Position numbers and translations under genes: made by a program. Shown here in pieces: positions 40,438 through 56,193 of a stretch of DNA of 64,000 bases. The notes beneath the pieces are model-generated. The model made no database searches. It was not told the DNA's origin and was given only the letters and a program-made list of their open reading frames with translations. The stretch is from Aeromicrobium chenweiae (lineage in GTDB: Bacteria > Actinomycetota > Actinomycetes > Propionibacteriales > Nocardioidaceae): assembly GCF_003065605.1 (NCBI RefSeq), contig NZ_CP026952.1, positions 186,001 through 250,000 of the forward strand, read 5' to 3'. Position 1 is the stretch's first letter. Each line of letters opens with the position of its first letter.

Positions 40438-41019
40438 ATGGGAACGGTCGAGAACGTCGTGCTGCTGGACGAGTCGGGGCACGGCATCGGCGTGGCCCCG
40501 AAGACCGGCGTCCACCACGGGACGACACCGCTGCACCTGGCGTTCTCCTGCTACGTGTTCGACGCCGACGACCAGCTGCTGGTGACCCGCCGCGCGCTGG
40601 ACAAGACGACGTTCCCGGGCGTCTGGACCAACAGCGCGTGCGGGCACCCCGCGCCCGAGGAGTCGATGCGCGCCGCCGTGCGACGACGCGTCCAGCAGGA
40701 GCTGGGGCTCTCGGTCGAGCAGGTCCGACTGGTCCTGCCGGAGTTCCGCTACACCGCGCACATGAACGGCATCCGCGAGAACGAGATGTGCCCCGTGTTC
40801 ACCGCCCGGGCCGCCGGTCGGATGACGCTGGATCCCGCCGAGGTCGGCGACGCCGTGTGGGAGCCGTGGACAAAGTTCTCGCAGGACGTCCTGTCCGGGC
40901 GGCGCGAGGTGTCGTCCTGGTGCCGGATGCAGGTCGAGGGCCTTGACGCGCTGGGCCCGCTCCCCGGCGAGTGGCCCGCCGCCGACCCGTCTCGTCTCCC
41001 TCCCGCCGTCACGGTCTGA
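40438..41019 (+). CDS. idi: Isopentenyl-diphosphate delta-isomerase, type I
   Basis: 193 residues, Nudix fold. Catalytic Cys68 (TNSACGH) and Glu116 (ENEMCPVF) are present, and metal ligands H26/H27, H33, H70, E114 and E116 correspond to those of the E. coli enzyme. Interconverts IPP and DMAPP, feeding the crtE gene 9 kb away. A TACGGT box lies 7 nt upstream of the ATG with no ribosome binding site, so translation may be leaderless. First gene of the carotenoid locus; the CDP-alcohol transferase gene follows 1 nt after. Confidence 0.96.
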   Translation: MGTVENVVLLDESGHGIGVAPKTGVHHGTTPLHLAFSCYVFDADDQLLVTRRALDKTTFPGVWTNSACGHPAPEESMRAAVRRRVQQELGLSVEQVRLVLPEFRYTAHMNGIRENEMCPVFTARAAGRMTLDPAEVGDAVWEPWTKFSQDVLSGRREVSSWCRMQVEGLDALGPLPGEWPAADPSRLPPAVTV

Positions 41020-41020
41020 C

Positions 41021-41749
41021 ATGCCGGTCGACCCGGATCCCGACCCGGCCGGACGGCTCGCCCGGGACCGTTGGTCGGCCGCGCACGGGGGCGTCGACCC
41101 GGACGCCTCGCGGTGGATCAGCGGCTGGCTCGCACTCGTGCACCGTCTTGCCCGCCCGCTGGCCGCGCGGCGCGTCCCGCCGAGCCTCATCACGGCGGCC
41201 GGGCTGATCGCCTCCGCCCTCGTGCCACTGGTCGCCGGAGCCCCGGGGGCGTGGCCGATCGCTGCGGCCGTCCTGGCCGTCGCCGCCGGCCTGCTGGACG
41301 GGATGGACGGGGCGGTGGCGCGCATGAACGGCACCGACACCGCCTGGGGTGCCGTGCTGGACGAGCTCGTCGACCGGATCTCGGACCTGCTCCTGCTGTC
41401 CGCCCTGTGGGTGCTCGGGGCGCCGGCGTGGGCGTGCCTCGCGGCAGGTGCCCTGACCCTGCTGCTGGAGTCGCTGCGCTCGTCCGCGCGGGGCGGCGGG
41501 ATGGTCGGGGTCGGTGTGATCACCGTCTGGGAGAGGCCGTCGCGGATCATCGTCGTGATGACCGTCGGCGTGCTGTGCGGTCTCGTGCGGATCGTCCAGG
41601 ACGCCGTCGACCTCCCGGACGGTGCCGTCGAGGTGCTGGCGGGCGTGGGCGCGGTCGTCGCCGCCGTGCTGGCGGCGTGGTCGACCGTTCACCTGGCGCT
41701 GGTGGTGCGGCGCAGCCTCGGGGTCAGGAAGGCCCCACGAGACCGCTGA
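41021..41749 (+). CDS. CDP-alcohol phosphatidyltransferase-family membrane protein
   Basis: 242 residues with six hydrophobic segments and a complete CDP-alcohol motif D93-x2-D-G-x2-A-R-x8-G-x3-D-x3-D118. Enzymes of this family join a CDP-activated lipid to an alcohol, making phospholipids. The motif guarantees the fold and the reaction type; the substrates are unknown. It is 1 nt after idi and overlaps the convergent CrtD-like gene by 26 bp. Its presence inside a carotenoid locus is unusual. Confidence 0.85.
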   Translation: MPVDPDPDPAGRLARDRWSAAHGGVDPDASRWISGWLALVHRLARPLAARRVPPSLITAAGLIASALVPLVAGAPGAWPIAAAVLAVAAGLLDGMDGAVARMNGTDTAWGAVLDELVDRISDLLLLSALWVLGAPAWACLAAGALTLLLESLRSSARGGGMVGVGVITVWERPSRIIVVMTVGVLCGLVRIVQDAVDLPDGAVEVLAGVGAVVAAVLAAWSTVHLALVVRRSLGVRKAPRDR

Positions 41750-43208
41750 CGATCTCGGCCGAGAGCATCACCAGCGGCAGCCCGCCGCCGGGATGGGCCG
41801 ATCCGCCGACCAGGAACAGCCCGGGGACCGGCGACCGGTTGGCCGGTCGCAGGAACGCCGACCGGGGTCCGTTCGACGAGGAGCCGTAGATGGCACCGCC
41901 CCCGGTCAGGGTGGCCCGGCCCAGGTCCGCCGGGGTGCGCACCTCGCGCCAGCGAAGGTGCGGCCGGACGTCGAAGCCGCGCCGGGCCATCGTGTCGAGC
42001 ACGTGCTCGGCGTACTCGTCGGCGAGCCCGGGCTCGTCCCAGTCGACCCCGCCCCGTGGGTCGTGGGGTGCGGCGTTGACCAGCACGAACAGTCCCTCGG
42101 CACCGTCCGGTGCCATCGCCGGATCGCCCGGCGACGAGACGTAGACCGTGGGGGCCTCGACCGGGCGGCGCCGGCCGCGAGGGCCGAGCACACCGTCGAA
42201 CTCGGCGTCGTAGTCGTCGGTGAACAGTACCTGGTGGTGGCGGTGCTCGTACAGCAGCGCGTCCGTCGCCAGCAGCAGGACGAACCCGGACAGCGAGCGG
42301 CTGCGGTCGAGGCGGGCCGCGGTCCGCCACGCGCGGGGATCGGGGGGAACCAGCCGGCCGTACAGCTGGGCCGCGTCGACCCCGGCCACCACCACGTCCG
42401 CGGCCAGCAGCTCGCCGTCCGCGAGCCGTACGCCGCAGGCCCGGCCCGCAGCGGTCACCACCTCGACGACCTCCGTGGACAGCCGCACGGTGGCGCCCCG
42501 CTCGACGGCACGGTCGCGGACGGTCTCGGCGATCCGGTGCAGCCCGCCGGGCACGTGCCAGGACCCGTGCGCCTGCTCCACGTACGGGACGGTCGCCAGC
42601 GCGGCGGGCGCGCGTCGCGGGTCCGAACCGGTGTAGGTCGCGTAGCGGTCGAGCAGCTGGCGCAGGCGAGGGTCGTGCAGGTACGACGCGCCGAGCCCGC
42701 GCAGCGTCTGCCACGGGGCGACGTCGCGGACGTCGGTGAGCCGGCGGGACAGCCGGGCCATGTCGCGGAGCGTGATCGGCGACTCCAGGAACGGCTCGTG
42801 CGTCGCGTCCCAGATGCGCTCCGCCCGGTCCAGGAACGTCGACCACTGGGCGCCGCGACCGGGGCCGAGGGCGGTGTCGAGCGCCGGACCGATCGCGCCG
42901 GCGTCGCCGGGCATGTCGAGCACGGTGCCGTCGGGGAAGCGGTAGCGGCACGCGGTCTCGAGCGGCTGCAGCGGCAGCACCGACGCGAGGGGATCGCCGG
43001 TCGCGGCGAACAGGTCCTCCAGCACGTACGGCATCGTCAGCAGCGAGGGTCCGGTGTCGAACGTGAAACCGTCGCGCCGGAACGTGCCGAGCTTGCCGCC
43101 GATCGCGTCGGACTGCTCCACGACGGTCACGTCGTGCCCGGCCGCGGCGAGGCGCGCCGCGGCCGCGAGACCACCGAGGCCGGCACCGACGACGACGACG
43201 CGGCTCAT
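41724..43208 (-). CDS. Carotenoid desaturase/dehydrogenase-like FAD oxidoreductase (CrtD-like)
   Basis: 494 residues, CrtI/CrtD/CrtO superfamily. FAD loop VVVVGAGLGGLAAAARLA (about 3-20), GGKLGTFRRDGFTFDTGPSL (about 40-59) and the C-terminal GLFLVGGSAHPGGGLPLVML. A second CrtI-like gene exists in the same locus, so this copy is most likely the modifier, for example a C-3',4' desaturase acting after hydration by CruF. A CrtO-type ketolase is the alternative. Overlaps the GT2 gene by 4 nt. Confidence 0.85.
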   Translation of the reverse strand: MSRVVVVGAGLGGLAAAARLAAAGHDVTVVEQSDAIGGKLGTFRRDGFTFDTGPSLLTMPYVLEDLFAATGDPLASVLPLQPLETACRYRFPDGTVLDMPGDAGAIGPALDTALGPGRGAQWSTFLDRAERIWDATHEPFLESPITLRDMARLSRRLTDVRDVAPWQTLRGLGASYLHDPRLRQLLDRYATYTGSDPRRAPAALATVPYVEQAHGSWHVPGGLHRIAETVRDRAVERGATVRLSTEVVEVVTAAGRACGVRLADGELLAADVVVAGVDAAQLYGRLVPPDPRAWRTAARLDRSRSLSGFVLLLATDALLYEHRHHQVLFTDDYDAEFDGVLGPRGRRRPVEAPTVYVSSPGDPAMAPDGAEGLFVLVNAAPHDPRGGVDWDEPGLADEYAEHVLDTMARRGFDVRPHLRWREVRTPADLGRATLTGGGAIYGSSSNGPRSAFLRPANRSPVPGLFLVGGSAHPGGGLPLVMLSAEIVSGLVGPS

Positions 43209-44332
43209 CCGGCGTCCCCGCCGACCGGGCGGCCCTTCCACCGCAGCTCGCCGCGGGCCCGGCGGCGGAACGAGTCGACCAGCAGCCCGTCGAGGAGCAG
43301 GACCGAGAACGGATGGAGCCACACGTCCGGGACGAGCCGGCCGCGGGTGCGCCGGGCCACGAGCGCCCGGCCGGCGACCGCCGCGAGGTAGCCCAGCAGG
43401 CCGGTGCGCGACCCCCGGAGGGCGGCCGCGGGTGGCACGACGTACGCCAGCCCCAGCACGCCCGAGACGGCGGTCGCGCCGGCAGGCGAGCCGAAGGCCG
43501 ACCAGAGCGACTTGGCGTAGCCGTCACGCAGCCCGGGCCAGCCGTCGTACATGCGGCACGTCGCGACGGCGCTGCCGTCGGCCACGACGCCCCGTCCGCC
43601 GGATCCCTTGACCGCGCGCAGGAGCGCGATGTCCTCCAGCACCTCGTGGCGCACGGCGGCGTGCCCGCCCGCGCGGCGGTACGCGGCGGCGTCGACGCAC
43701 AGCAGCTGTCCGTTGGCGGCCCCGAGAGACGGTCGGGACGAGCGCTCGGCGAGGCGCAGGGGCAGGGTGCTCATCCACGACCACTGCAGCAACGGCTGGA
43801 CCAGGCGCTCGGACCAGGTCAGGGCGAGCTGGCGCGGGTAGGGGCAGACCAGGTCGAGGTCTGCCGCGCGCAGGAGGCCGACGGTCGCGGACAGGCACGA
43901 CGCGGCCACGGTGACGTCGGCGTCCACGAACAGCAGGACGCCGGCTGTCGGTGGTGCCGCCTCCGCCAGCTGCTGGCAGGCCCACGGCTTGCCGAGCCAG
44001 CCGACGGGCAGGGGAGCGCCGGCAAGGAGAGTGACGCGCGGATCGGTGGCGGCGACGGACCGCACCAGGTCCGCGGTGCCGTCGGTCGAGCCGTCGTCGA
44101 GCACGAGGACGTCGACCGTCCCGGCGCACCGGTCGGCTGAGCGCAGGATGCTGCGCAGGCAGGCGAGGACGGCCGCCTCCTCGTCCCGCACGGGCAGCAG
44201 GACGGCCACGTGCTCCTCGGCCGGCGGGCCGTCGGTGTCGGGCACACGCAGCGTCCGCAGGTTGCGCACCACCAGCCCGAGCGACGCGAGGGACAGGACT
44301 GTCCCGGCGCGCACGACGGGTCCGGACCTCAC
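43205..44332 (-). CDS. Glycosyltransferase family 2 membrane protein (CruC-like)
   Basis: 375 residues. N-terminal span, then a GT2 domain with AVLLPVRDEE (about 42-51), VLVLDDGSTDGTADLV (about 74-89) and the DXD-type LLFVDADVTV (about 131-140). C-terminal hydrophobic segments anchor it. Family GT2 and the location between CruF-like and CrtD-like genes suggest a carotenoid 1'-hydroxyl glycosyltransferase such as CruC. The GTG start overlaps the CruF stop (GTGA). Confidence 0.82.
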   Translation of the reverse strand: MRSGPVVRAGTVLSLASLGLVVRNLRTLRVPDTDGPPAEEHVAVLLPVRDEEAAVLACLRSILRSADRCAGTVDVLVLDDGSTDGTADLVRSVAATDPRVTLLAGAPLPVGWLGKPWACQQLAEAAPPTAGVLLFVDADVTVAASCLSATVGLLRAADLDLVCPYPRQLALTWSERLVQPLLQWSWMSTLPLRLAERSSRPSLGAANGQLLCVDAAAYRRAGGHAAVRHEVLEDIALLRAVKGSGGRGVVADGSAVATCRMYDGWPGLRDGYAKSLWSAFGSPAGATAVSGVLGLAYVVPPAAALRGSRTGLLGYLAAVAGRALVARRTRGRLVPDVWLHPFSVLLLDGLLVDSFRRRARGELRWKGRPVGGDAG

Positions 44333-45141
44333 GAGCCGCCCTCGCGCCGGTGACGGCGCACCAGCTGGACGGCGAGCGGGATCGCGACGGTCCCCATGAG
44401 CAGACCGCCGACCAGCGCCACCGGCGGCCGGCCGAAGAACAGCGCGTGGGCGAGCACGGACGACGCGTACGTCCACAGGAACACGGTCAGCGGCAGCAGG
44501 TCACCGTCCGTGGCAGCACGCGGTGTGCGGGCGACAACCCGGTCCAGAACGGTGCACATGACCACGGCGACGACGAGCCAGCCGGCGAAGTTCGTCAGCG
44601 GGATGTCCTCCACGCCCGGCAGGGACGGGGTGGGGTGGTCCCAGCGCCAGTGCCCGGCGTCCACCATCTGCGGGTCGAGGAAGACGTCCCACGTGGTCAG
44701 GGCCCATCCGGCGAGCACCGGGACGAGGGGACGGTACGACCCGGCGAGCCGCCGTGCCGCCAGCAGGGCGGGGTACGCCATCATCAGCCACGCCAGCGGG
44801 ACCACGGCCGGCACGCCCAGCACCTCGGGACCGAGGGTGCCCGTGTAGTCGTACGAGCCGAACGGGATCCCGGTGTGCACGCCGACGGCCTCCGCGACCA
44901 GCCCGCCACCGCCGGCGACGAGCAGCAGCCCGAGCGCCGACGTGGGACCGCGGGTGGCCGTCACGTGGACCAGTGCGGCGGCAGACAGCAGCACGACGCT
45001 CAGGATCGTCAGCCGGTTGCTGCCGCCGTCGGTGAACGGGAAGACCATCTGCGTGAGGATCGCGGCCGCGCCGAGCGCCCACGCGAGCAGCACGACCGGC
45101 GGCGTGCCCGTGCGGTGGACCACGGGGAGGGACGGGGTCAC
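44329..45141 (-). CDS. cruF: Carotenoid biosynthesis membrane protein (CruF-like 1',2'-hydratase)
   Basis: 270 residues, seven hydrophobic segments. Family-specific stretches: AEAVGVHTGIPFGSYDYTG (about 88-106) and WDVFLDPQMVDAGHWRW (about 154-170), with the acidic and His residues conserved in CruF/bisanhydrobacterioruberin hydratases. It adds water to the 1',2' double bond of an open psi end. The neighbours encode enzymes that act before and after this step. GTG overlaps the CrtA-like stop (GTGA); internal starts are possible. Confidence 0.85.
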   Translation of the reverse strand: MTPSLPVVHRTGTPPVVLLAWALGAAAILTQMVFPFTDGGSNRLTILSVVLLSAAALVHVTATRGPTSALGLLLVAGGGGLVAEAVGVHTGIPFGSYDYTGTLGPEVLGVPAVVPLAWLMMAYPALLAARRLAGSYRPLVPVLAGWALTTWDVFLDPQMVDAGHWRWDHPTPSLPGVEDIPLTNFAGWLVVAVVMCTVLDRVVARTPRAATDGDLLPLTVFLWTYASSVLAHALFFGRPPVALVGGLLMGTVAIPLAVQLVRRHRREGGS

Positions 45142-45848
45142 GGTGCCGTCCCCCGGTAGGTGCCCTCGACCTCGCGGAGCGCGAACCGGGCGAAGAGCTC
45201 CTCGGCGTACCAACCGGCCGACGCGGTGCGGCGGACCACCTCGCGGTGCGGCGCGCGACGATAGGCGAAGTCCACCAGGGCGTCGGAGGACTCCCAGAGG
45301 CTGAACGTCCCCTGCAGGCCGATGGGTGCCTCGCCGATGCCGAGCGACATCCGCAGGCCCGGAGACCCCTGCAGGTCGCTCGAGACCGGCGGGACGGCCC
45401 GCCAGAACGTGGCCGCGCGGCGCACGCGCAGGCGGGCCCGCGTGATCGCGGCGACCGGGCCGGCGTGCCGCTCGGCCGGCTCGACGGTGGAGGGCTCGGC
45501 GGTGAAGGGCTCGGCGGTGAAGGGCTCGGCCCCCGACCACGAGCCGCGCGACGACAGCGGGGACATCACGACCCGCAGGCGCTCGTGCGCGAGGGAGTCC
45601 CAGGCCCCGACGAGGCGTCCGGAGTCGAACGCGCGGGCGGATGCGTCGTCGTCCCACACGGTCAGCGTGGCCCAGTGGTGCGGGTCGGCGTCGCGCAGCG
45701 TGAACGTCTCGCCCGAGCCGGTCCCCAGCAGCTTGGCGAAGCGCAGGCCCGGCGTGCTGCGCAGGCCGACCCGGTCGCGGCCCATGCGCCAGAGCGCCGA
45801 GGGCACCGATCGGGTGCCCCACACGTGCAGCACCGCGACCTCGCTCAC
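45138..45848 (-). CDS. Spheroidene monooxygenase-like protein (CrtA-like)
   Basis: 236 residues. CrtA-type sequence: an LHVWGTRSVPSAL opening (about 7-19), RSTPGLRFAKLLGTGSGETF (about 29-48), TLRDADPHHWATLTVWD and the closing FSLWESSDALVDFAYR with GWYAEELFARFA. CrtA oxidises C-2 of an acyclic end group using O2. Between the two halves lies an expanded TAEPF repeat (residues about 107-123). Overlaps the CruF gene by 4 nt. Its role would follow CruF and CrtD. Confidence 0.85.
   Translation of the reverse strand: MSEVAVLHVWGTRSVPSALWRMGRDRVGLRSTPGLRFAKLLGTGSGETFTLRDADPHHWATLTVWDDDASARAFDSGRLVGAWDSLAHERLRVVMSPLSSRGSWSGAEPFTAEPFTAEPSTVEPAERHAGPVAAITRARLRVRRAATFWRAVPPVSSDLQGSPGLRMSLGIGEAPIGLQGTFSLWESSDALVDFAYRRAPHREVVRRTASAGWYAEELFARFALREVEGTYRGTAP
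45481..45525. repeat. 15-bp tandem repeat inside the CrtA-like gene
   Basis: Three in-frame units of TCGGCGGTGAAGGGC (the first with two changes) encode TAEPF/TAEPF/TVEPS-like repeats. It falls in the linker between the conserved halves, so copy number could vary without loss of function. Confidence 0.8.
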
Positions 45849-46708
45849 CGCTTGCCCTCCCGCGCGGCGCGCAGCCGGTCGTCCAGCTCGACGGTGAGGA
45901 CCCAGCCCACGAGGAGGACCAGGTGCAGCAGGAACAGCCAGAACCCGACAGCGACGACCCCGCCGACGACGTCGAGCCCGCCGAACGGGACGCCCAGGTC
46001 GATCGGGATCGACAGGAACAGCAGGAAGCCCTGCAGGAAGCCGGCCAGGAACGCGGCGGTGGCGAGCGCGCCGATCCCCGCCGACGTCCAGCGCAGGTGG
46101 CCGGGCGCGACCTGGCGGAACACCCAGGTCAGCGGTGCGGTGAGCGCGAGCCAGGTGATCGTGAACTCGACGACGATCAGCAGCAGGCGTGCGCCCAGGC
46201 CCTCGCGCCCGGCCAGGTCGAGCGGTCCCGAGGAGAGGCGGATGACCGCGATCGACAGCGGGGCGACCAGCACCAGGAGCGGCAGCATCCAGAGCCGGGC
46301 CTGCCAGCCGGTCAACCTGTCGTGCGCGGGCAGCAGGGACAGGCAGCCCCGGCGGATGCCCTCGCCGTAGAAGCTGGCCGGGAGCACCGTGACGAGCGCA
46401 CCGCCCACCCCCAGGCCGGTGCCGGCCGTCACGAGCGTCGCGAACGGGCCCCGGGCGCCCATGTCCGGTGGCACCAGGGACCGCAGGTCGAGCAGGCGTC
46501 GCTCGGCCTCGGACGTGTCGGTGAACCAGGTCGTCGACCAGCACGCGAGCAGCAGCCAGGGCACGATAGCGATGCTGGCGAAGTAGGTGAGCTGGGCGGC
46601 CGAGACCGACACGTCGCGGCGCGCGATCGTGCGTCCGGCAGATCGCAGGGTCTCGAGGGCCTCGGTCGCGATCCCGGACGTCCCACCAGCCCGCTCCGCC
46701 GCCGTCAC
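45845..46708 (-). CDS. YihY/BrkB-family membrane protein
   Basis: 287 residues, six hydrophobic segments, and the opening of the family (ARRDVSVSAAQLTYFASIA, about 26-44), then LPASFYGEGIRRG and the terminal HLVLLVGWVLTVELDDRLR. YihY/BrkB proteins are widely conserved inner-membrane proteins with no assured function; it is not an RNase despite the RNase BN name once used. The GTG start overlaps nothing upstream, so this is the first gene of the BrkB-CrtA-CruF-GT2-CrtD operon. It may help localise the carotenoid. Confidence 0.82.
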   Translation of the reverse strand: MTAAERAGGTSGIATEALETLRSAGRTIARRDVSVSAAQLTYFASIAIVPWLLLACWSTTWFTDTSEAERRLLDLRSLVPPDMGARGPFATLVTAGTGLGVGGALVTVLPASFYGEGIRRGCLSLLPAHDRLTGWQARLWMLPLLVLVAPLSIAVIRLSSGPLDLAGREGLGARLLLIVVEFTITWLALTAPLTWVFRQVAPGHLRWTSAGIGALATAAFLAGFLQGFLLFLSIPIDLGVPFGGLDVVGGVVAVGFWLFLLHLVLLVGWVLTVELDDRLRAAREGKR

Positions 46709-46851
46709 CTGTCCATCTTCCCGCACGCCGACCGCGCACGCATGCCGTCGACGCCCCCGGCCCGCGCCCAGTGCGTCCGCACTCGGCTCGCGGCAGGCTC
46801 CCATCGCCGGGACACTGGAAGCCCCACGAGCCAACCGCAGGAGGTCTGCCG

Positions 46852-47193
46852 ATGGAGTCCTGGACGTACGCCGGGATGCTGCTGTTCGTCCTGGCCGCGA
46901 CGCTCCCGCTGGAGCTCGTCCTGCGCACGCGCGTGTACGCCCGGCCCCGCCGGCTCGCCCTCGTCCTGCTCTGCGTCGCGCCGCCGTTCATCCTCTGGGA
47001 CGTGCTCGCGACCCGGGCGGGTCATTGGTCGTTCGACCTGTCCCAGACCTTGGGCGTCACGATCGGCGACCTGCCGCTCGAGGAGCTGGCGTTCTTCTTC
47101 GTGGTCCCGGTCGCGTCGGTGCTGACCCTCGAGGCCGTGCGGTCGGTGCGTGGCTGGACCGTGGGCGACGAGCCGGAGGCGGACGGCCGGTGA
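46852..47193 (+). CDS. crtYc: Lycopene cyclase subunit (CrtYc type)
   Basis: 113 residues, three membrane spans. The PxEE motif P-L-E-E-L-A-F-F (about 80-87) is the hallmark of the heterodimeric actinobacterial cyclases. Together with the next protein it closes beta- or epsilon-rings on lycopene. AGGAGG lies upstream of the ATG (46839-46844). The GTG of the second subunit overlaps its stop (GTGA). Which half corresponds to CrtYc and CrtYd is assigned by order. Confidence 0.88.
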   Translation: MESWTYAGMLLFVLAATLPLELVLRTRVYARPRRLALVLLCVAPPFILWDVLATRAGHWSFDLSQTLGVTIGDLPLEELAFFFVVPVASVLTLEAVRSVRGWTVGDEPEADGR

Positions 47194-47579
47194 CGCACAC
47201 CGAGGTGTCCCTGCTCGCGGTGCTCGCGACGATCGTGCTGGACCTGTGGGTCCTGCGCACCCGCTTGCTGACCAGGCGGGTCTTCTGGGTGTCGTACGCG
47301 ATCGTGCTGTTCTTCCAGCTGCTGACCAACGAGTGGCTGACCTCGCGCGGGGTGTTCCGGTACGACCCGGATGCGATCCTCGGGTGGCGCGTGGGTCATG
47401 CACCGGTCGAGGACTTCCTGTTCGGCTTCGCCCTGGTCACGTGGTCGATGTGCTGGTGGACGTGGTGGGGCCGTCGGGGGGTGCAGGCCGGGCCGTTCGG
47501 CGAGCGCGGGCTGCTGCGACGAGGCGCGGGGCGGCGATCCGCAGACGCCGACGACGCGGCACCGTCACGCGCTGATTGA
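47190..47579 (+). CDS. crtYd: Lycopene cyclase subunit (CrtYd type)
   Basis: 129 residues, three membrane spans and the partner motif P-V-E-D-F-L-F (about 72-78). The last 30 residues, after the conserved WWTWWGRRG, are hydrophilic and lie opposite the end of crtB: the two genes overlap tail to tail by 143 bp (47437-47579). Works with CrtYc as a heterodimer. Confidence 0.88.
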   Translation: MTHTEVSLLAVLATIVLDLWVLRTRLLTRRVFWVSYAIVLFFQLLTNEWLTSRGVFRYDPDAILGWRVGHAPVEDFLFGFALVTWSMCWWTWWGRRGVQAGPFGERGLLRRGAGRRSADADDAAPSRAD

Positions 47580-48387
47580 GCACGTCGTGCCCGGCCTTCT
47601 CAACCTCGTCGAGGATGCCGCCGTAGAGGCCGAACGCGGTCCAGACGCAGTCACGGCTCGTCGGGTCGAGCAGGTCGATGCCGGGCGCCGCCTGCGCGTA
47701 CAGGCTCCGCGCCCGATCGACCTCGAAGCGCACCAGGTCGCGGACCTCGGCCGTGACGGGACCCGGCTGCAGGTCCGCGGGCTTCACGCCGAACCGGTCC
47801 AGGTCCTCCTGGGGGAGATAGACCCGGCCGCGCACCAGGTCCTCGGCCACGTCGCGGATGAAGTTGGTCAGCTGGAACGCCTCGCCCAGCAGCTGGGCGT
47901 GGTGGTGGGCGCGGTCGTCCACGACACCGAGGACCGGCACCATCTGCAGCCCGATGACGGACGCCGAGCCGTACATGTAGCCGCGCAGGTCCTCGTACGT
48001 CTCGTAGGAGGAGACCGTGATGTCCTCACGCATCGAGTGCAGGAACGCCTCGACGTACGACAGGGGGATCCGGTACCGGCTCATCGTGTGCGACGCCGCT
48101 GCCGCCACCGGGTCGTCCGAGCCGCCGGTCCGGACGGCGTCGAGGAACGCGTCGCCCCACGCGACGAGCCGGTCCGGGTCCGGAGCGGTCAGCGAGTCCA
48201 CGAAGTCGTCGGCGTAGCGGGCGAAGCCGTACAGGGCGTGGACGTGCGGTCGCTTGTGCGGCGGCAGCAACAGGGTCGCGAGGTAGTAGGACTTGCCGTG
48301 CTCGGCGTTGAGCCGGCGGCACGTCTCGTACGACGAGCGCAGCAGCGGGTCGTGGATGCCTGCGGCTTCGAGCTCGCGGGCGCTCAC
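47437..48387 (-). CDS. crtB: Phytoene synthase
   Basis: 316 residues. Joins two GGPP molecules to phytoene. Aspartate motifs are YADDFVD (about 58-64) and FIRDVAEDL (about 175-183), and YGSASVIGLQM lies between. The C-terminal 45 residues are a basic, then Pro/Thr/Ser-rich tail that overlaps crtYd on the other strand. The GTG start overlaps the crtI stop (GTGA). Confidence 0.95.
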   Translation of the reverse strand: MSARELEAAGIHDPLLRSSYETCRRLNAEHGKSYYLATLLLPPHKRPHVHALYGFARYADDFVDSLTAPDPDRLVAWGDAFLDAVRTGGSDDPVAAAASHTMSRYRIPLSYVEAFLHSMREDITVSSYETYEDLRGYMYGSASVIGLQMVPVLGVVDDRAHHHAQLLGEAFQLTNFIRDVAEDLVRGRVYLPQEDLDRFGVKPADLQPGPVTAEVRDLVRFEVDRARSLYAQAAPGIDLLDPTSRDCVWTAFGLYGGILDEVEKAGHDVLNQRVTVPRRRRLRIAAPRLVAAARARRTARPAPPDGPTTSTSTSTT

Positions 48388-49883
48388 GGCCAGGTCCTCG
48401 ACCGGTAGCCCGGCTGGGGGCCGGTGATGCGCTCGGCCGCGAGGCGTCCCGAGACCAGCACCATCGGCACGCCGACGCCGGGGGTGGTGCCCGAGCCGGC
48501 GAACACGACGTTGTCCCCCCAGATGTTGCGGGGGCGGAAGGGGCCGGTCTGGCCGAACGTGTGCGCCGCCGCGAAGGGGGCGCCGCGCTCCATGCCCTGG
48601 GCCTCCCAGTCCAGCGGGGTCGTCGCGTGCTCGACCTCGATGGCGTCCCCGAACCCGGGGTAGCCGCGCCGCTCGAGCGTCTCGATCACGTGCTCGCGGT
48701 AGCGCGGCTCGAAGGTCCGCCAGTCGATGTCCGCGTCCAGGTTGGGGGTCGGGAACAGCACGTAGTAGCTGTGCCGGCCGGGAGGCGCGAGGCTCGGGTC
48801 CATGTGGGTGGGCACCGACACCAGCAGCGACGGGTCGCTCATGACCCGGCGCTCGTCGATCAGCTCGGTGAACACGCCCTCCCACGAGTCGCCGAAGGAG
48901 ATGTTGTGCAGCGCGCCCGGGGCGTAGTCGACGGTCGACCCGGCCAGGAGCAGGTAGCAGGAGGGCGAGTACGACAGCCGGGCCACACGGCGCGGGGTGC
49001 GGCCGAGGAGGTCACGCCACGCGACGGGGAGGTCCGGCGTCAGGACCACGGCGTCGCAGGCGATCCGCTCGCCGTCCGTCGTGTGCACCGCGGTCGCGCG
49101 CTTGCCGTCCAGCTCCACGCGGTCGACCGTCGTGCCGTACCGGAAGGTCACGCCGTGCTTCTCCGCCGCTCCGGCGAGGGCCTGCGGCACCGCGTGCATC
49201 CCGCCGCGCGCGAAGAAGACGCCGGCGACCGAGTCCATGTAGCTGATGACGCTGTAGATCGCGAGGGCGTCGTACGGCGACAGCCCCGCGTACATCGCCT
49301 GGAAGCTGTAGGCCTTCTGCAGGCGCGGGTCCTTCAGGTACTGCGCGACCTTCGGGGCCAGGCGCCGGAACCCACCGATCGCGGCCAGGCGGGCGAGGTT
49401 GGGTGTCGCGACCGAGAGCGGCGAGTCCATGTTGGTGTCGATGAAGTCCCGCATCTCGTAGCGGTAGACCTTCTCGAGGAACGCCGTGAAGTCGCGGAAA
49501 CCCGCCGCGTCGCCGTGACCGCAGACCTCGCGGATCTCCTGCTCCATGCGGGCGGGATCGGCGTGCACGTCCAGGCGCGAGCCGTCCGGGTACGTCGCCC
49601 GGTAGAGCGGGTCGACCGGCACCAGGTCGAGCCAGTCGTCCATCTCCTCGCCGACGCAGTCGAAGGCATCGGCGATGAGGTCGGGCATCGTCAGCACGGT
49701 CGGCCCGGTGTCGAACGAGTAGCCGCCGGTGCGGACCACGCCGGCCCGGCCGCCGGGCTCCTCGTCCCGTTCGACGACCGTGACCTGTCGGCCGGCGCCG
49801 GCGAGACGGAGTGCTGCGGACAGGCCGCCGAGTCCTGCCCCCACGATCACGACGTGGTCGGTCGGGCCCTTGACGGTGCGCAT
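48384..49883 (-). CDS. crtI: Phytoene desaturase
   Basis: 499 residues. FAD loop VVIVGAGLGGLSAALRL (about 11-27) and PGGRAGVVRTGGYSFDTGPT (about 43-62), and the C-terminal bacterial-type desaturase signature NIWGDNVVFAGSGTTPGVGV (about 459-478). Introduces double bonds into phytoene to form lycopene. The ATG and the crtE stop overlap (TGATG). This is the closer match to authentic CrtI of the two desaturases in the locus. Confidence 0.95.
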   Translation of the reverse strand: MRTVKGPTDHVVIVGAGLGGLSAALRLAGAGRQVTVVERDEEPGGRAGVVRTGGYSFDTGPTVLTMPDLIADAFDCVGEEMDDWLDLVPVDPLYRATYPDGSRLDVHADPARMEQEIREVCGHGDAAGFRDFTAFLEKVYRYEMRDFIDTNMDSPLSVATPNLARLAAIGGFRRLAPKVAQYLKDPRLQKAYSFQAMYAGLSPYDALAIYSVISYMDSVAGVFFARGGMHAVPQALAGAAEKHGVTFRYGTTVDRVELDGKRATAVHTTDGERIACDAVVLTPDLPVAWRDLLGRTPRRVARLSYSPSCYLLLAGSTVDYAPGALHNISFGDSWEGVFTELIDERRVMSDPSLLVSVPTHMDPSLAPPGRHSYYVLFPTPNLDADIDWRTFEPRYREHVIETLERRGYPGFGDAIEVEHATTPLDWEAQGMERGAPFAAAHTFGQTGPFRPRNIWGDNVVFAGSGTTPGVGVPMVLVSGRLAAERITGPQPGYRSRTWP

Positions 49884-51058
49884 CAGGACGCCCGTCCGGC
49901 GATGCGCTCGGCGAGCTCGGCGAGGCCGGACGCGACCGGTGCGGGCACGTCGCTCGTGCGGATCGCGTCCGCCCCCCGCGCCGTGAGCTCGGCGATCCGC
50001 TGCTCGACGAGGTCGAGGGCGCCGGTGCTCACCAGCACCTGCTGCAGTGCCGCGACGCCGGCGGCGTCCAGGTCGCGGTTGCCGAGACCGGCCTCCAGCA
50101 CCTCGCGGCCGGCCCGGTCCGCGCGGTCCCGCGCGACGAGCACCAGGAGCGTCTTCTTGCCCTCGCGGAGGTCGTCGCCGACCGGCTTGCCGGTGCGGGT
50201 CTCGTCGCCGAAGACCCCGAGGACGTCGTCGCGGAGCTGGAACGCCTCGCCGACCGGCAGCCCGTACGCCGAGCAGGCGCGCAGCAGGTCCGGACCGGCT
50301 CCCGCGGCCGCCCCGCCGAGCATCAACGGGTGCTCGACGGTGTACTTCGCGCTCTTGAACTGCAGCACGGTGCGCGCCGCGTCCACCGTGGTGTGGTCGC
50401 GCGACTGCTCGAGCACGTCGAGGTACTGGCCGGCGACGACCTGCGTCCGCATGAGGTTGTAGATCCTGCGAGCCGCGACGTGCCGGGCCGGTGCGAGGAG
50501 GCTGCCGTCCAGGAGCTCGTCGGACCAGGTCAGGCACAGGTCGCCGACCAGCAGGGCGGCTCCGTTGCCGAACTCGGCGGCGTCGCCCCGCAGCCCGCCG
50601 CGCCGGTGCTGGCCCGCGAACGCCGTGTGGACGGTGGGGACGCCGCGGCGGGTCGCGCTGTGGTCCATCAGGTCGTCGTGCACCAACGCGGCGAGGTGGA
50701 ACAGCTCCAGCGCCGCGGCGACGTCGACCGTGGCGTCGGTGACGGGGGTGCCGGTCGCCCGCCAGCCCCAGTACCCGAAGGTGGCGCGCAGCCGCTTGCC
50801 GCCGCGGGCCACCTCGCGGAGGATCCGGGTCACGGGCTGCAGGTCGGGACTCACCTCGAGCAGGAGGCTGGACCGCGCTGCCAGGAACGTGTCGAGACGC
50901 GCCTCGACACGCTCGAGGAATGCGGCGGCGTCCGCCACCTCCGCGAGGTCCTCGCGCTGGCGTGGCGCGGCGTGCTCAGCCGTCGCGGTCATGATGGGTC
51001 GTGGTCCGGCACGTGCTTCCTCGTCGGTCGGTGAGGAGCACCCCTCCTGCGGAGGCAT
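49883..51058 (-). CDS. crtE: Geranylgeranyl diphosphate synthase (polyprenyl synthetase)
   Basis: 391 residues from ATG 51058. Aspartate-rich motifs D128-D-L-M-D132 (VHDDLMD) and QLRDDVLGVFGD further on bind the diphosphate/Mg2+; GGKRLRATFGYW precedes the first. Makes GGPP for CrtB. I chose 51058 because GGAGGGAG lies 9 nt upstream. The alternative ATG 50992 gives a 369-residue protein without a ribosome binding site, but it overlaps the stop of a 34-codon open frame with a perfect AGGAGG. First gene of the crtE-crtI-crtB operon. Confidence 0.93.
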   Translation of the reverse strand: MPPQEGCSSPTDEEARAGPRPIMTATAEHAAPRQREDLAEVADAAAFLERVEARLDTFLAARSSLLLEVSPDLQPVTRILREVARGGKRLRATFGYWGWRATGTPVTDATVDVAAALELFHLAALVHDDLMDHSATRRGVPTVHTAFAGQHRRGGLRGDAAEFGNGAALLVGDLCLTWSDELLDGSLLAPARHVAARRIYNLMRTQVVAGQYLDVLEQSRDHTTVDAARTVLQFKSAKYTVEHPLMLGGAAAGAGPDLLRACSAYGLPVGEAFQLRDDVLGVFGDETRTGKPVGDDLREGKKTLLVLVARDRADRAGREVLEAGLGNRDLDAAGVAALQQVLVSTGALDLVEQRIAELTARGADAIRTSDVPAPVASGLAELAERIAGRAS

Positions 51059-51665: not shown

Positions 51666-52139
51666 CTGCGCGGCCACGTTACGGTCGAGCCTTGTCTCTC
51701 GGGCGAACAGATGCGTGGCCGGTGACCCGTTCTGGAGCACGGTCCGGCCCGAGAATCCTGACCTCGACCTGATTGTCTCGTCGGGCCATCGCCGCTGGAT
51801 TGCCCGGCCCGACGCCGAAGGGCCCTTCGGGCCCGACCCGACCCCCGGTCTGATCGTCCCCGGTCTCCCGGCGCGGGCAGGTCAGGCGTACGTCGTCCAG
51901 AAGGCCCGCGGGAGTCCGGGGGTCATCCCGTCCATCGAGGGCGGCTGTGTGAGGGGCTCAAGGACGATGATGTCCGACAGTTGCCGCCGAGCGCCGGGAC
52001 GATCTGGACCTGTCCATCTCGTCCTGGGGAGGAGGACAGGCACCCCTCGTCGTATTCAGCGAGAGACGTCGGTCTGGGGCGTAGACTAAGTGTGAGGGCG
52101 CCGCTTTACAGTTGAACCTGAACTCAGTATAAGTAAAGT
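51666..52139. other. 474-bp region without a supported gene (left border of the catabolic block)
   Basis: Contains a 16-bp perfect palindrome CCGAAGGG-CCCTTCGG (51815-51830). One plus-strand frame carries GDPFWSTVRPENPDLDLI (from about 51720), which looks like the C-terminus of a small actinobacterial protein and may be a remnant; it has no start with a ribosome binding site. The last 35 bp hold the tetR promoter. Base composition and codon use change after this point. No tRNA, integrase or attachment repeat was found. Confidence 0.45.
52105..52133 (+). promoter_or_regulatory. Promoter of tetR with operator A
   Basis: TTTACA (52105-52110), 17 nt, TATAAG (52128-52133), then 6 nt to the ATG: a well-formed leaderless promoter. 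Operator A (52112-52133) is TTGAAC-CTGAACTCAG-TATAAG, one of four copies of the block's motif TTGAAY-N10-NTTCAA, and it covers the -10 box. Confidence 0.65.
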
Positions 52140-52814
52140 ATGGGTGACACAGACACGCCGTTGATCGAGCTGGAAGAGGGACTGTCACCGGAGAGTCCCT
52201 CCAAGGACAAGCCGCTAACGGCTAGGGGTGCACGCACCAGGGCCGCGCTGGTCGCTGCCGCCCGGGTCATCTTCGAACGTGACGGTTATCTTGATTGTCG
52301 TCTGACCGACATCACCGCGCAGGCCCGGTGCTCGACAGGCACGTTCTACACCTACTTCTCCAGCAAGGAGGAGGTCTTCGCCGCCGTGCTGGAAGCGTCG
52401 CAGAACGACATGCTCCACCCGGGCATGCCGCGTCTTGACCCAGGGCAGAGCTCTCACGTCGAGGTCATCGAGGCCAGCCACCGGGCCTATTTCGAGGCCT
52501 ACCGTCGCAACGCGAAACTCATGATGTTGTTGGAGCAAGTCGCCATGATCGACCCGAAGTTCCGCGAGATGCGCCGCCAACGAGGCAAGGTCTTCGGCGA
52601 GCGAAACGCCCGCGCCATTGCGGATCTGCAGCAGCGTGGCTTGGCAGACCCAAATTTGGATCCGTACATGGCGTCCATGGCACTTAACGGCATGGTCGGA
52701 CGCTTGGCGTATCACAATTTCGCTCTGGGAGACGACATGGAGTTCGAGGCCCTGGTCGACACTGCGACCAAACTGTGGGTCAACGCGCTGAAGATCGTCG
52801 CGACGCCAAGCTAA
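52140..52814 (+). CDS. TetR/AcrR-family regulator of the catabolic block
   Basis: 224 residues. HTH at about 33-80 (AARVIFERDGYLDCRLTDIT then STGTFYTYFSSKEEVF). The C-terminal ligand domain is helical and resembles that of regulators controlling acyl-CoA metabolism. A 25-residue acidic/Ser-rich extension precedes the HTH. Its promoter contains operator A, and three further copies lie in front of maoC, the first hydratase and the dehydrogenase. It is therefore the likely repressor of the whole block, released by an acyl-CoA or the substrate. Confidence 0.9.
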   Translation: MGDTDTPLIELEEGLSPESPSKDKPLTARGARTRAALVAAARVIFERDGYLDCRLTDITAQARCSTGTFYTYFSSKEEVFAAVLEASQNDMLHPGMPRLDPGQSSHVEVIEASHRAYFEAYRRNAKLMMLLEQVAMIDPKFREMRRQRGKVFGERNARAIADLQQRGLADPNLDPYMASMALNGMVGRLAYHNFALGDDMEFEALVDTATKLWVNALKIVATPS

Positions 52815-52823
52815 CGAACGTAC

Positions 52824-53312
52824 TCAGTGTGGGTGCGTGGCGTGCTCGGTCAAGCGCGCGACCTGCTCGGCGACGCAGAATGGTTTGTCGGCTCCCTCGC
52901 GCTCATAGCGTTGGGAGATCACGATATTCGCGGCTGTGCCGAGGTCGTCCACTCTCGAAACCGTCGCACGCATGCGAATCCGGGATCCCACAGGGAGTGG
53001 GGAGGGGAATCGGACCTTGTCGTACCCGTAGTTGAGGCTGTGAGCGAATCCGTCGAAGACGATCAGTTCTTCCATCAGGCCGGGTCCCAGTGAAAGCCCG
53101 AACAATCCGTGGGCGATTGTCGAGCCGAATTCGCTTTCGGCAGCACGCACCGGATCCACATGAATCCATTGATGATCGCCGGTGAGGTCGGCAAATCGGT
53201 CGATGTCTTCTTGGGTCACGTGATGCCAGGTGGTCGCGCCCAGATCGGCGCCGATTAGCTCTCGGAGGTCGGCAGTTGTCCTAGGGCGGAGGGGGCGGGC
53301 GAGTTCGATCAT
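52824..53312 (-). CDS. MaoC-family (R)-enoyl-CoA hydratase/dehydratase
   Basis: 162-residue single hot-dog domain. The hydratase-2 motif is present as DLTGDHQWIHVDPVRA (about 45-60, catalytic Asp and His) with FGSTIAHGLFGLSL following. Hydrates trans-2-enoyl-CoA to the (R)-3-hydroxyacyl form or the reverse. GAAGGAG precedes ATG 53312. Divergent from the first enoyl-CoA hydratase, with operators B and C between them. Confidence 0.87.
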   Translation of the reverse strand: MIELARPLRPRTTADLRELIGADLGATTWHHVTQEDIDRFADLTGDHQWIHVDPVRAAESEFGSTIAHGLFGLSLGPGLMEELIVFDGFAHSLNYGYDKVRFPSPLPVGSRIRMRATVSRVDDLGTAANIVISQRYEREGADKPFCVAEQVARLTEHATHPH

Positions 53313-53342
53313 GGCGTTCTCCTTCGGTCGCAAGGAACGTAC

Positions 53343-53364
53343 CTGAAGTTGATGTCGAGTTCAA
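53343..53364. promoter_or_regulatory. Operator B
   Basis: On the minus strand: TTGAAC-TCGACATCAA-CTTCAG. Matches the 22-bp motif in front of tetR. It lies 31 nt upstream of the maoC start and probably controls maoC. Confidence 0.65.
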
Positions 53365-53408
53365 TAGACCTCGTATCCATATAAAATCATTTCTGAGATC
53401 TTCTGGAA

Positions 53409-53430
53409 TTGAACTTGACACCGGGTTCAT
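53409..53430. promoter_or_regulatory. Operator C (with -35 box inside)
   Basis: TTGAAC-TTGACACCGG-GTTCAT: the most symmetrical copy. A perfect TTGACA (53415-53420) lies inside it and would be the -35 box of the hydratase/transport operon, so binding here would repress it. Confidence 0.65.
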
Positions 53431-53511
53431 GTGTGCGATCACATGGTGTGACGCACACCACGCAGCGCCGGCCTCTCGCCGGACCTGTCCAACCAGGAGG
53501 GTTCGTATCCC

Positions 53512-54372
53512 ATGAGCGAAACCGAGCAGCCAGCCACGGTTATGTACGAGATCCAGGACGGCGTCGTCACACTCACGCTCAATCGTCCAGACCGTCTGAA
53601 CGCCTGGACGCCCCTGATGCAGCAGGAGCTCTACGACTCCCTCGATCGCATCATGTCGGACCCCGATGCTCGGATTGTCGTGCTGACCGGCGCCGGCCGC
53701 GGTTTCTGCGGCGGTGCCGACATGTCCGTGCTGCAGGTCGCGAGCGCTGAGACCGAGAAGGGGAGCCGGCCACTCCTGGCGCCGATGTGGTTTCCCAAGC
53801 CGATCATCGCGGCGATCAACGGCCCCTGCGCCGGCATCGGGCTGCAGCTCGCACTGATGTGCGACGTGCGGATCGCGGCCCGTAACGCCAAGTTCACCAC
53901 TTCATTCGCGCGGCGCGGGCTCATCGCCGAGCACGGCCTGTCGTGGCTGCTGCCCAAGATCACAACCATGGCGACGGCTATGGAACTCCTGCTCTCGGCT
54001 CGCGTCTTCCTCGCCGAAGAGGCCAAGGAGCTCGGCGTGATCCACCAGGTCGCCGACGAGGGGAACGCGCTCGCCGCCGCTCTCGAGTACGCCCACGACC
54101 TCGCCGACAACGTCTCGCCGACCTCGATGGCCGTCATCAAGTGGCAGATGTACAACCATGCTGACGCGCCGCTCCTCGATGTCGTCGATGACTCAGACGT
54201 CCTGATGTTCGAGTCGCTCGAGCGACCCGACCTGGCCGAGGGAGTCGCGAGCTTCATGGAGAAGCGCAAGCCGAACTTCCCGCCAGTGCTGATGGCGCAC
54301 GTGCCAGCCAACACCCGCGTGCTCGGCACGAAGCCCGACTCCCTCGATGCCGAATCCGACCTCCGTGTCTGA
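53512..54372 (+). CDS. Enoyl-CoA hydratase/isomerase (crotonase family), copy 1
   Basis: 286 residues. Crotonase oxyanion-hole segments are LTGAGRGFCGGADMS (about 58-72) and NGPCAGIGLQLALMCDVRIA (about 103-122). The usual catalytic Glu at the second acid position is not obvious: ARRGLIAEHGLSWLLPK (about 136-152) carries Glu and His there. Adds water to enoyl-CoA or isomerises it. AGGAGG precedes the ATG. The following permease gene overlaps its 3' end by 26 bp. Confidence 0.9.
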   Translation: MSETEQPATVMYEIQDGVVTLTLNRPDRLNAWTPLMQQELYDSLDRIMSDPDARIVVLTGAGRGFCGGADMSVLQVASAETEKGSRPLLAPMWFPKPIIAAINGPCAGIGLQLALMCDVRIAARNAKFTTSFARRGLIAEHGLSWLLPKITTMATAMELLLSARVFLAEEAKELGVIHQVADEGNALAAALEYAHDLADNVSPTSMAVIKWQMYNHADAPLLDVVDDSDVLMFESLERPDLAEGVASFMEKRKPNFPPVLMAHVPANTRVLGTKPDSLDAESDLRV

Positions 54373-55291
54373 GGTGGTCGCCGTCACGCCTCGGCGGCCG
54401 GTACGCAGGAACCGGTTCACGGCGTACCTGTTTGTCGCTCCGGCTGCGATATATCTGCTGGTTCTGATGGCATACCCGCTGTTTGAGGGCCTCCGCCTCA
54501 GCTTCACCGACACGAACTTGCTCAACCCGCGGGGCGGTGAGTACGTCGGAACGGAGAACTACTCCGAGCTGTTCTCGGACCCCGCCTTCTGGCGCACGCT
54601 GCGGATCACCTTGATCTACACGATCGTCAGCGTGGTCGGAGCCATCGGCGTCGGACTGCTGGCCGCCCTCGGCATGAACCGGTTGACCGGCCGTAGTCGG
54701 CTCCTTCGCGGACTGGTCATCATCCCGTGGGCCGCCCCGATGATCCCTGTCGCCCTGATCTCCGCATGGATCTTCGACAACCAGTACGGCGTGCTGAACT
54801 GGTTCGTCACCAAGGTCGGGATCAGCGACGGCTACGTCCAGTGGCTCGACAACGAGCACACCGCCCTGCCGTCCATCCTGGCCGTCACGATCTGGCGGGT
54901 CTTCCCCTTCTCCGCCGTCATCCTCCTGGCCGCCTTGCAGGGCGTCTCGGCCGATCTGTACGAGGCCGCACGCATCGATGGGACGAGTCGGATGAACGTG
55001 TTCAAGCACATCACGCTGCCGGCGATCCGTCCCACCCTCGGTGTCCTGACGTTGTTTGTCACGATCTGGTCGCTGCGTCGTTTCGACCTGATCTGGGTGC
55101 TGACCGAGGGCGGCCCTCTGGGCTCGACCAACACCTTGGTGATCGACCTGTACAAGACGGCGTTCCGGAACTCGCATCTCGGGCTGGGATCCGCGATCGG
55201 TGTCGTCGGCTTTGCCATCTCCACCTCTGTCACGGCGGTGTACTTCCTGCTCGCCGCCCGTAGAGCCCGAGCGACTGGAGCGAACGCATGA
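54347..55291 (+). CDS. ABC importer permease (MalF/UgpA-like)
   Basis: 314 residues, six membrane spans; EAA loop at YEAARIDGTSRMNVFKHITL (about 205-224). Belongs to the carbohydrate uptake (CUT1) type. ATG 54347 overlaps the hydratase gene; a GTG at 54365 is the alternative. Partner of the next gene. Sugar-type permeases also import polyols, osmolytes and some aromatic or terpenoid glycosides, so the substrate is open. Confidence 0.9.
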   Translation: MPNPTSVSEVVAVTPRRPVRRNRFTAYLFVAPAAIYLLVLMAYPLFEGLRLSFTDTNLLNPRGGEYVGTENYSELFSDPAFWRTLRITLIYTIVSVVGAIGVGLLAALGMNRLTGRSRLLRGLVIIPWAAPMIPVALISAWIFDNQYGVLNWFVTKVGISDGYVQWLDNEHTALPSILAVTIWRVFPFSAVILLAALQGVSADLYEAARIDGTSRMNVFKHITLPAIRPTLGVLTLFVTIWSLRRFDLIWVLTEGGPLGSTNTLVIDLYKTAFRNSHLGLGSAIGVVGFAISTSVTAVYFLLAARRARATGANA

Positions 55292-56193
55292 CCACCATTG
55301 CGGAAAGCCAGCCCGCGAGCCGTACGACTCCGCCACTCGCGGCTGCACCCCGGCCACGGCGCCGCATCGGCAAGCTCACGCGCCGCGCGGTGACGACGAT
55401 CGTGATCCTGGTCGGCATCCTGCTCGTGCTGTTCCCGGTCTACTGGATGTTCGTGACATCGCTGACGACGGACAAGGATCTGACCAGCAGCAGCCCGAGA
55501 TTCTTCCCCGACTTCTCCCGCTTGGGTATCTATAAGGACGTCCTCGCGGACACCCAGATCTTGAAGTGGTTGGGCAACAGCGCGGTCATCGCGATCGGCA
55601 CGGCCGTCTGCACCATGGTGCTCGGGTTCTTCGCGGCATACGCGCTGTCCCGCTATCGCTTCAAGGGACAGTCCTTGTTCGGCTTCGCGCTGTTCGCGAC
55701 GCAGATGCTGCCCGAGGCGCTTCTGGTCGTGCCGTTCTACGCGCTGTTCGTCAGCCTCGGCCTCCTCAACAACCTCGGTGGACTCGTGCTCGTGCACACC
55801 GCCTTCGTGATGCCGGTCGTCGTCTTCCTGCTCAAGAGCGCGATCGACGGCGTGCCGGTGGAGATCGAGGAGAGCGCCAAGATGGACGGGGCCAGCTCGC
55901 TGACCACCGCGACCCTGGTCGTTGCGCCCCTGATCGCGCCGTCGCTGGCGGCGGGCGCCATCGTCGCCTTCTTCTACGGCTGGGACGAGTTCCTGTTCGC
56001 CTCAACCTTCATCACCGATGAGGGCGCCCGGCCTGCGTCGGTGGGGCTCGCCTCGTTCATCGGCGAGTACCTCGTACCGATCAACACCGTGATGGCTGCA
56101 TCGGCGATCTACACCCTGCCTGCCATTGCCTTCTTCGTGCTGCTCCAGCGGTACGTCGTCAGCGGCCTCATTTCCGGCTCCATCAAGGGATAA
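55288..56193 (+). CDS. ABC importer permease (MalG/UgpE-like)
   Basis: 301 residues, six membrane spans. The MalG signature at IEESAKMDGASSLTTATLVV (about 192-211) contacts the ATPase, and YWMFVTSLTTDKDLTSSSPR follows the first span. The ATG overlaps the MalF-like stop (ATGA). Confidence 0.9.
   Translation: MTTIAESQPASRTTPPLAAAPRPRRRIGKLTRRAVTTIVILVGILLVLFPVYWMFVTSLTTDKDLTSSSPRFFPDFSRLGIYKDVLADTQILKWLGNSAVIAIGTAVCTMVLGFFAAYALSRYRFKGQSLFGFALFATQMLPEALLVVPFYALFVSLGLLNNLGGLVLVHTAFVMPVVVFLLKSAIDGVPVEIEESAKMDGASSLTTATLVVAPLIAPSLAAGAIVAFFYGWDEFLFASTFITDEGARPASVGLASFIGEYLVPINTVMAASAIYTLPAIAFFVLLQRYVVSGLISGSIKG

Follow-up and report, generated by a model that had tools for sequence, protein, structure and literature searches.

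Which carotenoid does the pigment locus of Aeromicrobium chenweiae make, and is the gene set that tailors it new? The locus occupies positions 40438-51058 of a 64,000-nucleotide stretch of the genome (the window), near 0.23 Mb of a genome that is a single contig of 3.72 Mb. We consider it fairly probable that this is a complete C40 carotenoid locus, directing the synthesis of a one-ringed, 1'-glucosylated, 2'-hydroxy, 3',4'-didehydro carotenoid. The pathway is of an already known kind, a common actinobacterial pigment locus, and its tailoring genes form a crtA-cruF-GT2-crtD cassette that recurs, in this order, in many actinobacterial genera. The answer draws on the gene families, the order and conservation of the cassette, and the kinship of the window CrtA with copies from Salinispora and Micromonospora; the reactions and their order, the type of ring, and the identity and position of the sugar are all inferred.

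Conservation of the crtA-cruF-GT2-crtD cassette

A mixed CrtA alignment was searched against genome contigs, yielding at least 595 matching stretches, at least 567 of which encode a relative. The best 80 of these at least 567 loci were kept; all are actinobacterial by title and, as the nearest to the window CrtA, they form an uneven sample. Together with 12 loci from samples of genus and order genomes and the window itself they make up 93 loci, or 92 distinct ones, because L034 and L123 share one contig. We called a cassette full when a profile search placed cruF, GT2 and crtD within the 9 kb downstream of crtA and on its strand. Of the 93 CrtA loci from actinobacteria, 56 carried such a cassette (55 of the 92 distinct ones), with the order crtA-cruF-GT2-crtD in 56 out of 56. 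The co-location is more than chance, since dozens of genomes repeat these genes in one and the same order. Twelve loci carried a partial cassette, nine of them with less than 3.3 kb of contig beyond crtA, and 25 carried no downstream cassette genes, six with less than 2.4 kb of contig. Two loci had a gene split over frames (cruF in L031, crtA in L093).

Full cassettes were found in Nocardioides, Kineosporia, Kineococcus, Quadrisphaera, Gordonia, Salinispora, Micromonospora and many metagenome-assembled genomes (MAGs), including one titled Candidatus Nanopelagicales (L058). This spread over many actinobacterial genera and MAGs is of interest since two papers confine the ketolase CrtA to purple bacteria and name CrtA-OH as its relative in flavobacteria (PMC11855829, PMC10604819).

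Among the closer relatives of the window, only a few species carry the locus, as an accessory block. The CrtA model matched strongly in three of the 49 genus genomes, which were also those with a CruF match, and CrtA reached E <= 1e-20 in 12 of the 293 genomes of the order sample. CrtB matched in 20 of the 49, at 83-100% identity in the three CrtA genomes, 45-46% in four and 32-38% in 13. Weak CrtA-model matches in eight further genus genomes (E 7e-11 to 5e-5) were left uncounted: a search with the window's ten proteins found a single 25-30% match at each of three such loci and nothing at the other five.

Several side observations concern the sampled loci. In Geodermatophilaceae, cruF, GT2 and crtD do not accompany crtA within the fetched stretch of L032, L033, L035, L036, L039, L041, L043, L044, L046-L048, L050, L051, L055, L057, L061 and L077. 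Five MAGs titled Bifidobacterium breve (L068, L083, L099, L107, L109) have loci like those of other environmental actinobacterial MAGs, and their titles are probably wrong; the L068 CrtA groups with UBA5976 in the CrtA tree. In 13 of 42 loci, crtA is immediately preceded on its strand by a member of one open-frame family, whose copy in L072 resembles an alpha/beta hydrolase, judged from the letters.

Gene content and layout of the locus

Gene families were assigned with Pfam and NCBIfam models, as follows.

49883..51058, minus strand: crtE, prenyl diphosphate synthase (PF00348 9.5e-49)
48384..49883, minus strand: crtI, phytoene desaturase (TIGR02734 501 bits, cut-off 238)
47437..48387, minus strand: crtB, phytoene synthase (PF00494 8.6e-77)
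47190..47579, plus strand: crtYd, lycopene cyclase half (PF18916 8.3e-12; TIGR03462 67.5 bits, cut-off 39.4)
46852..47193, plus strand: crtYc, lycopene cyclase half (PF18916 5.9e-12; TIGR03462 78.9 bits, cut-off 39.4)
45845..46708, minus strand: yihY/brkB, membrane protein heading the modification operon (PF03631 2.4e-21)
45138..45848, minus strand: crtA-like oxygenase, predicted C2' hydroxylase (spheroidene monooxygenase equivalog NF045923 2.7e-49, 167.5 bits, curated cut-off of 300 not reached; tree and fold)
44329..45141, minus strand: cruF, carotenoid 1',2'-hydratase (PF04240 4.4e-39; TIGR03460 125 bits, cut-off 154.7), the single cruF of the genome
43205..44332, minus strand: GT2 glycosyltransferase, related to CruG and HpnB (CruG model 102 of 600 bits, HpnB 117 of 379)
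41724..43208, minus strand: crtD-like 1'-hydroxycarotenoid 3',4'-desaturase (NF045637 6.3e-110, 368 bits, cut-off 580)
41021..41749, plus strand: CDP-alcohol phosphatidyltransferase family gene, convergent with crtD (PF01066 6.2e-12)
40438..41019, plus strand: idi, isopentenyl diphosphate isomerase (PRK03759 230 bits, cut-off 127)

The gene reading and both model sets thus agree with the initial annotation that crtE, crtI, crtB, crtYc, crtYd, cruF, GT2 and the CrtD-like and CrtA-like genes all lie within 40438-51058. Its picture of one overlapping operon is rejected because of strand and gene order: crtE-crtI-crtB and yihY-crtA-cruF-GT2-crtD are two minus-strand units, divided by the plus-strand crtYc-crtYd pair, which is divergent from yihY and convergent with crtB. 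It had also left unnamed yihY/brkB, the CDP-alcohol phosphatidyltransferase gene (hereafter the transferase) and idi, with which its range starts. Since idi was matched in only five of 92 other loci (tblastn, E <= 1e-8), we treat it as a local neighbour and not as a fixed part of the locus.

Within the units, genes are tightly packed, with four-base overlaps at each of the four junctions from yihY to crtD, one base shared by crtE and crtI, and four by crtI and crtB; a later start for crtE, an ATG at 50992, is possible. The halves CrtYc and CrtYd each have a single Lycopene_cyc domain. The 3' ends of crtB and crtYd overlap in antisense by 143 bases (47437-47579). A promoter scan of 46650-46900 gave nothing, and none had been expected. 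Over the first 52 kb of the window the G+C fraction is about 0.68-0.76, compared with 0.61-0.66 at 52001-62000, perhaps a different piece of the genome.

Predicted pathway and its precedents

Our data are consistent with a pathway in which CrtE, CrtB and CrtI would produce lycopene, and the CrtYc/CrtYd pair would close a beta-ring at one of its ends. At the open end, CruF would hydrate C1'-C2', CrtD would desaturate the 3',4' bond, the CrtA-like protein, a putative haem oxygenase, would add a hydroxyl at C2', and GT2 would attach a sugar, most likely glucose, to the 1'-hydroxyl. The tailoring enzymes are named by homology, and GT2 is assigned to the carotenoid by its gene context. The most likely product is the beta-ring counterpart of sioxanthin, of phleixanthophyll type and 2'-hydroxy rather than 2'-keto; it is the simplest prediction because crtYc-crtYd are at the locus. 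This counterpart is known as phleixanthophyll. The hydroxylated, 3',4'-desaturated, glycosylated monocyclic carotenoid that had been proposed initially therefore stands as the best prediction, with a 2'-hydroxyl better supported than the 2'-ketone suggested alongside it.

The sioxanthin genes of Salinispora are said to go back to Richter, Hughes and Moore (2015). In Salinispora L076 they include crtA-cruF-GT2-crtD in the same order and strand as in the window, with proteins about 46-52% identical to the window's and a transferase gene convergent behind crtD. Sioxanthin has a 1'-glucosyloxy, 3',4'-didehydro, 2'-ol end (PMC8469146), so that the open end of the Salinispora pigment equals the one predicted here, with its 1'-glucosyl, 2'-hydroxyl and 3',4'-didehydro groups (PMC8469146, PMC6341766, PMC5765111). 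The sioxanthin cluster is said to be present in all but two Micromonospora strains of one study (PMC5765111).

In flavobacteria, CruF, CrtD and CrtA-OH build the open end of myxol, and stepwise addition of the three Nonlabens enzymes in Escherichia coli gave 1'-hydroxy-gamma-carotene, 1'-hydroxytorulene and deoxymyxol (PMC11855829). Like the window, where family models find all three together, the myxol clusters of Nonlabens spongiae and Flavobacterium P99-3 combine CruF, CrtD and a CrtA-type enzyme at one open end of a monocyclic carotenoid. Unlike the window, they have a CrtY of another type and a CrtZ ring hydroxylase, and no glycosyltransferase is reported in the cluster, in a comparison made from published descriptions. 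No CrtZ was among the genes read at the locus, and no genome search was made for it.

The gene set had initially been thought to have no known match once CrtA was added. The myxol pathway, with its CrtA-type enzyme (PMC11855829), contradicts this, and sioxanthin is a second precedent, both by product structure (PMC8469146) and by the kept gene cassette. The earlier interpretation is thus partly supported: it has the correct kind of product, errs in treating the gene set as without a match and is probably mistaken about C2'. A further likeness in product is phleixanthophyll, a glycoside reported from Nocardia kirovani (PMC5822342); it is a hydroxylated monocyclic carotenoid glycoside of an actinobacterium, as predicted for the window, and its gene set was not found in a limited literature search.

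Kinship and fold of the CrtA-like oxygenase

The purple-bacterial spheroidene monooxygenase CrtA is a homologue of the window CrtA, but it is a ketolase acting on acyclic carotenoids and falls in a separate tree group. For the tree, 47 rows were picked from 98 loci, with three alphaproteobacterial rows as the outgroup. All but one of the 43 actinobacterial rows, those of Salinispora and Micromonospora included, fell in one group (support 98/98), the inner order of which is partly open; a Nonomuraea row and a Deinococcus plasmid row were placed outside it. In this tree, the window CrtA groups with the Salinispora-type copy and not with the three alphaproteobacterial CrtA proteins, to which it is 37-39% identical. 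Flavobacterial CrtA-OH did not turn up in the plasmid searches, and the genome-contig scan kept actinobacteria only. No CrtA was confirmed in viral contigs.

CrtA had no match in the PDB by sequence. A structural model built from 42 rows (predicted local distance difference test (pLDDT) 91.8, predicted template modelling score 0.89) is a tandem alpha/beta-barrel protein. In Foldseek, the lowest E-values belonged to putative monooxygenases with template modelling scores of 0.31-0.40, while aldoxime dehydratases scored 0.56-0.62; VIA-align ranked aldoxime dehydratases first over the whole length (Z 14.0-14.6, root-mean-square deviation 3.6-3.9, 216-221 residues). Aldoxime dehydratases are haem enzymes. 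His199 of CrtA, invariant in 47 out of 47 rows, may be a haem ligand. Purple-bacterial CrtA is reported to contain a five-coordinated haem and to depend on oxygen and ferredoxin (PMC10604819).

Two Deinococcus plasmids carry related genes. The CrtA relative on a Deinococcus taeanensis plasmid (L026) is 43% identical and has no annotated carotenoid gene within 8 kb. Plasmid 2 of Deinococcus deserti (L152) has, in a row, a CruF-matched carotenoid biosynthesis protein, an acyltransferase, DoxX, a GT2 and a flavin adenine dinucleotide (FAD) oxidoreductase, perhaps for another glycosylated, acylated carotenoid.

Membrane-related companions of the cassette

What makes the pigment locus notable is its two membrane-related companions, above all the phosphatidyltransferase, which belongs to the locus as a conserved part. 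The transferase was detected by tblastn of neighbouring genes in 44 of 92 loci (E <= 1e-8), by open-frame comparison in 31 of 42 chosen full-cassette loci (queries from 15), always on the strand opposite crtD, and by profile search in 46 of the 56 full cassettes, or 45 of the 55 distinct ones, again opposite crtD in all 46. In 41 loci less than 1.5 kb separates its start from the end of crtD, and in L125, L122, L058, L069 and L079 the distance is 1.5-4.1 kb. The profile search found it in none of the 37 other loci. It was absent from ten full-cassette loci. In two of these, L045 and L065, about 200 bases of contig remain; the other eight (L031, L052, L053, L056, L063, L070, L071 and L088) have 1.1-6.6 kb.

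In the genus sample (n = 49), transferase orthologues occur in the three cassette genomes (491, 386 and 221 bits; best other 36.4 bits). In the order sample it was found at E <= 6e-28 in 12 of the 293 genomes, the next match being at 1.6e-12, and CrtA and the YihY protein (E <= 7e-67) are in the same 12; at E <= 1e-15 the YihY protein was in no other genome of the 293. As the genes are linked at one locus, the co-occurrences of CrtA and transferase are not independent; more weight falls on the fact that distant families keep the arrangement.

The CDP-alcohol phosphatidyltransferase motif is D..DG..AR-x8-G...D...D. The window copy carries it, although the strict motif is present in only three of 46 cassette copies (window, L121, L120); the Arg is replaced in the others, and the Asp and Gly residues are kept in 45 of 45 aligned rows. 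The genome holds five PF01066 genes, and the four outside the locus retain the AR pair. In a quick tree the 44 cassette rows split from these four with a support of 72, but a single origin of the cassette copies is not shown because of very long branches among the other copies. The best NCBIfam match of the transferase is archaetidylinositol phosphate synthase (83 of 180 bits).

The second companion, yihY, also belongs to the locus as a further gene. It directly precedes crtA in 16 of 56 full-cassette loci (15 of 55 distinct), all Propionibacteriales by kinship code or title. Five of the 40 full-cassette loci without it are uninformative because they have less than 950 bases upstream; in N. 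rubriscoriae (L038) the cassette occurs without yihY. The YihY model (pLDDT 85) found no PDB chain at E <= 0.001 in a fold search, and the sequence found two PDB matches at E 0.84; with no clear PDB match, a mechanism cannot be derived from structure. E. coli YhjD, of the YihY/BrkB family, has been linked to lipid export, and a flippase role for YihY is a guess.

That a phospholipid-type transferase accompanies the cassette across distant families suggests a further step following glycosylation, one that may never have been sought. It is an unlikely idea that a dedicated transferase subfamily would make an overlooked phospholipid-like form of the carotenoid glucoside, or a special partner phospholipid, which in Propionibacteriales the YihY/BrkB protein would flip or place in the membrane. 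A syntenic region reported from Streptomyces combines crtB and teichoic acid genes with a GT2 and a CDP-alcohol phosphatidyltransferase (PMC13118837), a possible relative of the link between transferase and cassette.

Alternative products

How else might the locus be read? CrtA could act twice at C2' and leave a ketone, giving 1'-glycosyloxy-2'-keto-torulene, as first suggested. The purple-bacterial homologues, with the identity given above, are 2-ketolases that work through two hydroxylations (PMC10604819), but the window CrtA groups with Salinispora and Micromonospora copies and the Salinispora pigment is a 2'-alcohol (PMC8469146), while the flavobacterial CrtA-OH stops at the alcohol (PMC11855829); we consider the ketone unlikely. 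Much the same doubt, or slightly more, attaches to a further modification of the glucoside, either acylation or coupling to a phosphatidyl or phospho-alcohol group through the convergent transferase. The conserved position of this gene and its occurrence in the same 12 order and three genus genomes as CrtA speak for such a step, whereas the linkage of the genes, the eight transferase-less full cassettes with more than 1 kb of contig left and Salinispora L076, which has the transferase although sioxanthin is described with glucose only and no phosphate (PMC8469146), speak against it. A cyclase working on both ends, so that beta-carotene or another bicyclic compound is the main pigment and the tailoring genes yield minor products, seems improbable: flavobacterial CrtY alone gave mostly beta-carotene, but CrtY with CruF gave mainly monocyclic 1'-hydroxy-gamma-carotene (PMC11855829), and here the tailoring genes stay together in one tightly packed operon. 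Least credible, and very improbable, is a C50 locus in which CruF would act on a compound resembling bacterioruberin. CruF scores best with the bisanhydrobacterioruberin hydratase model and the genome has a third UbiA gene (L003), but there is no UbiA-type elongase at the locus; the three UbiA genes lie at 1.51, 1.73 and 3.22 Mb, and the third, more than 1.2 Mb away, exceeds the cut-off of no NCBIfam model.

The one-ringed 2'-hydroxy glucoside also has points that weigh against it. CrtA, CrtD, CruF and GT2 all score below their NCBIfam equivalog cut-offs, and the top CruF model is named for a compound of the C50 pathway. Salinispora pigment has an aromatic (phi) ring, unlike the ring predicted for the window, and crtYc and crtYd, as well as crtB, crtI and YihY, had no match within 20.7 kb of the Salinispora L076 locus; that the cyclase stops at one ring is a prediction. 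In the sioxanthin pathway proper the aromatic ring goes with a crtU gene, whereas the locus here carries the crtYc-crtYd pair. The gene responsible for the 2'-hydroxyl of sioxanthin is itself assigned indirectly, and the choice between hydroxylase and ketolase rests on the sioxanthin structure because the CrtA tree contains no flavobacterial CrtA-OH. Nineteen loci (17 of Geodermatophilaceae together with L059 and L060) have 4.8 kb or more beyond crtA, and the fetched stretch holds none of the other cassette genes. Lastly, the orphan UbiA gene and a CrtO-like gene in two frames could alter the product.

A rhodopsin, considered with a salinixanthin-like antenna pigment in mind, had no match in the genome, and 14 controls were equally silent, so this does not show absence. 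We do not claim a 4-ketolase, as the best match of the CrtO model (141 of 1000 bits) is an FAD oxidoreductase about 2.9 Mb from the locus. This CrtO-like FAD oxidoreductase, at 3134654-3136206 of the genome (L118), consists of two parts matching in different frames.

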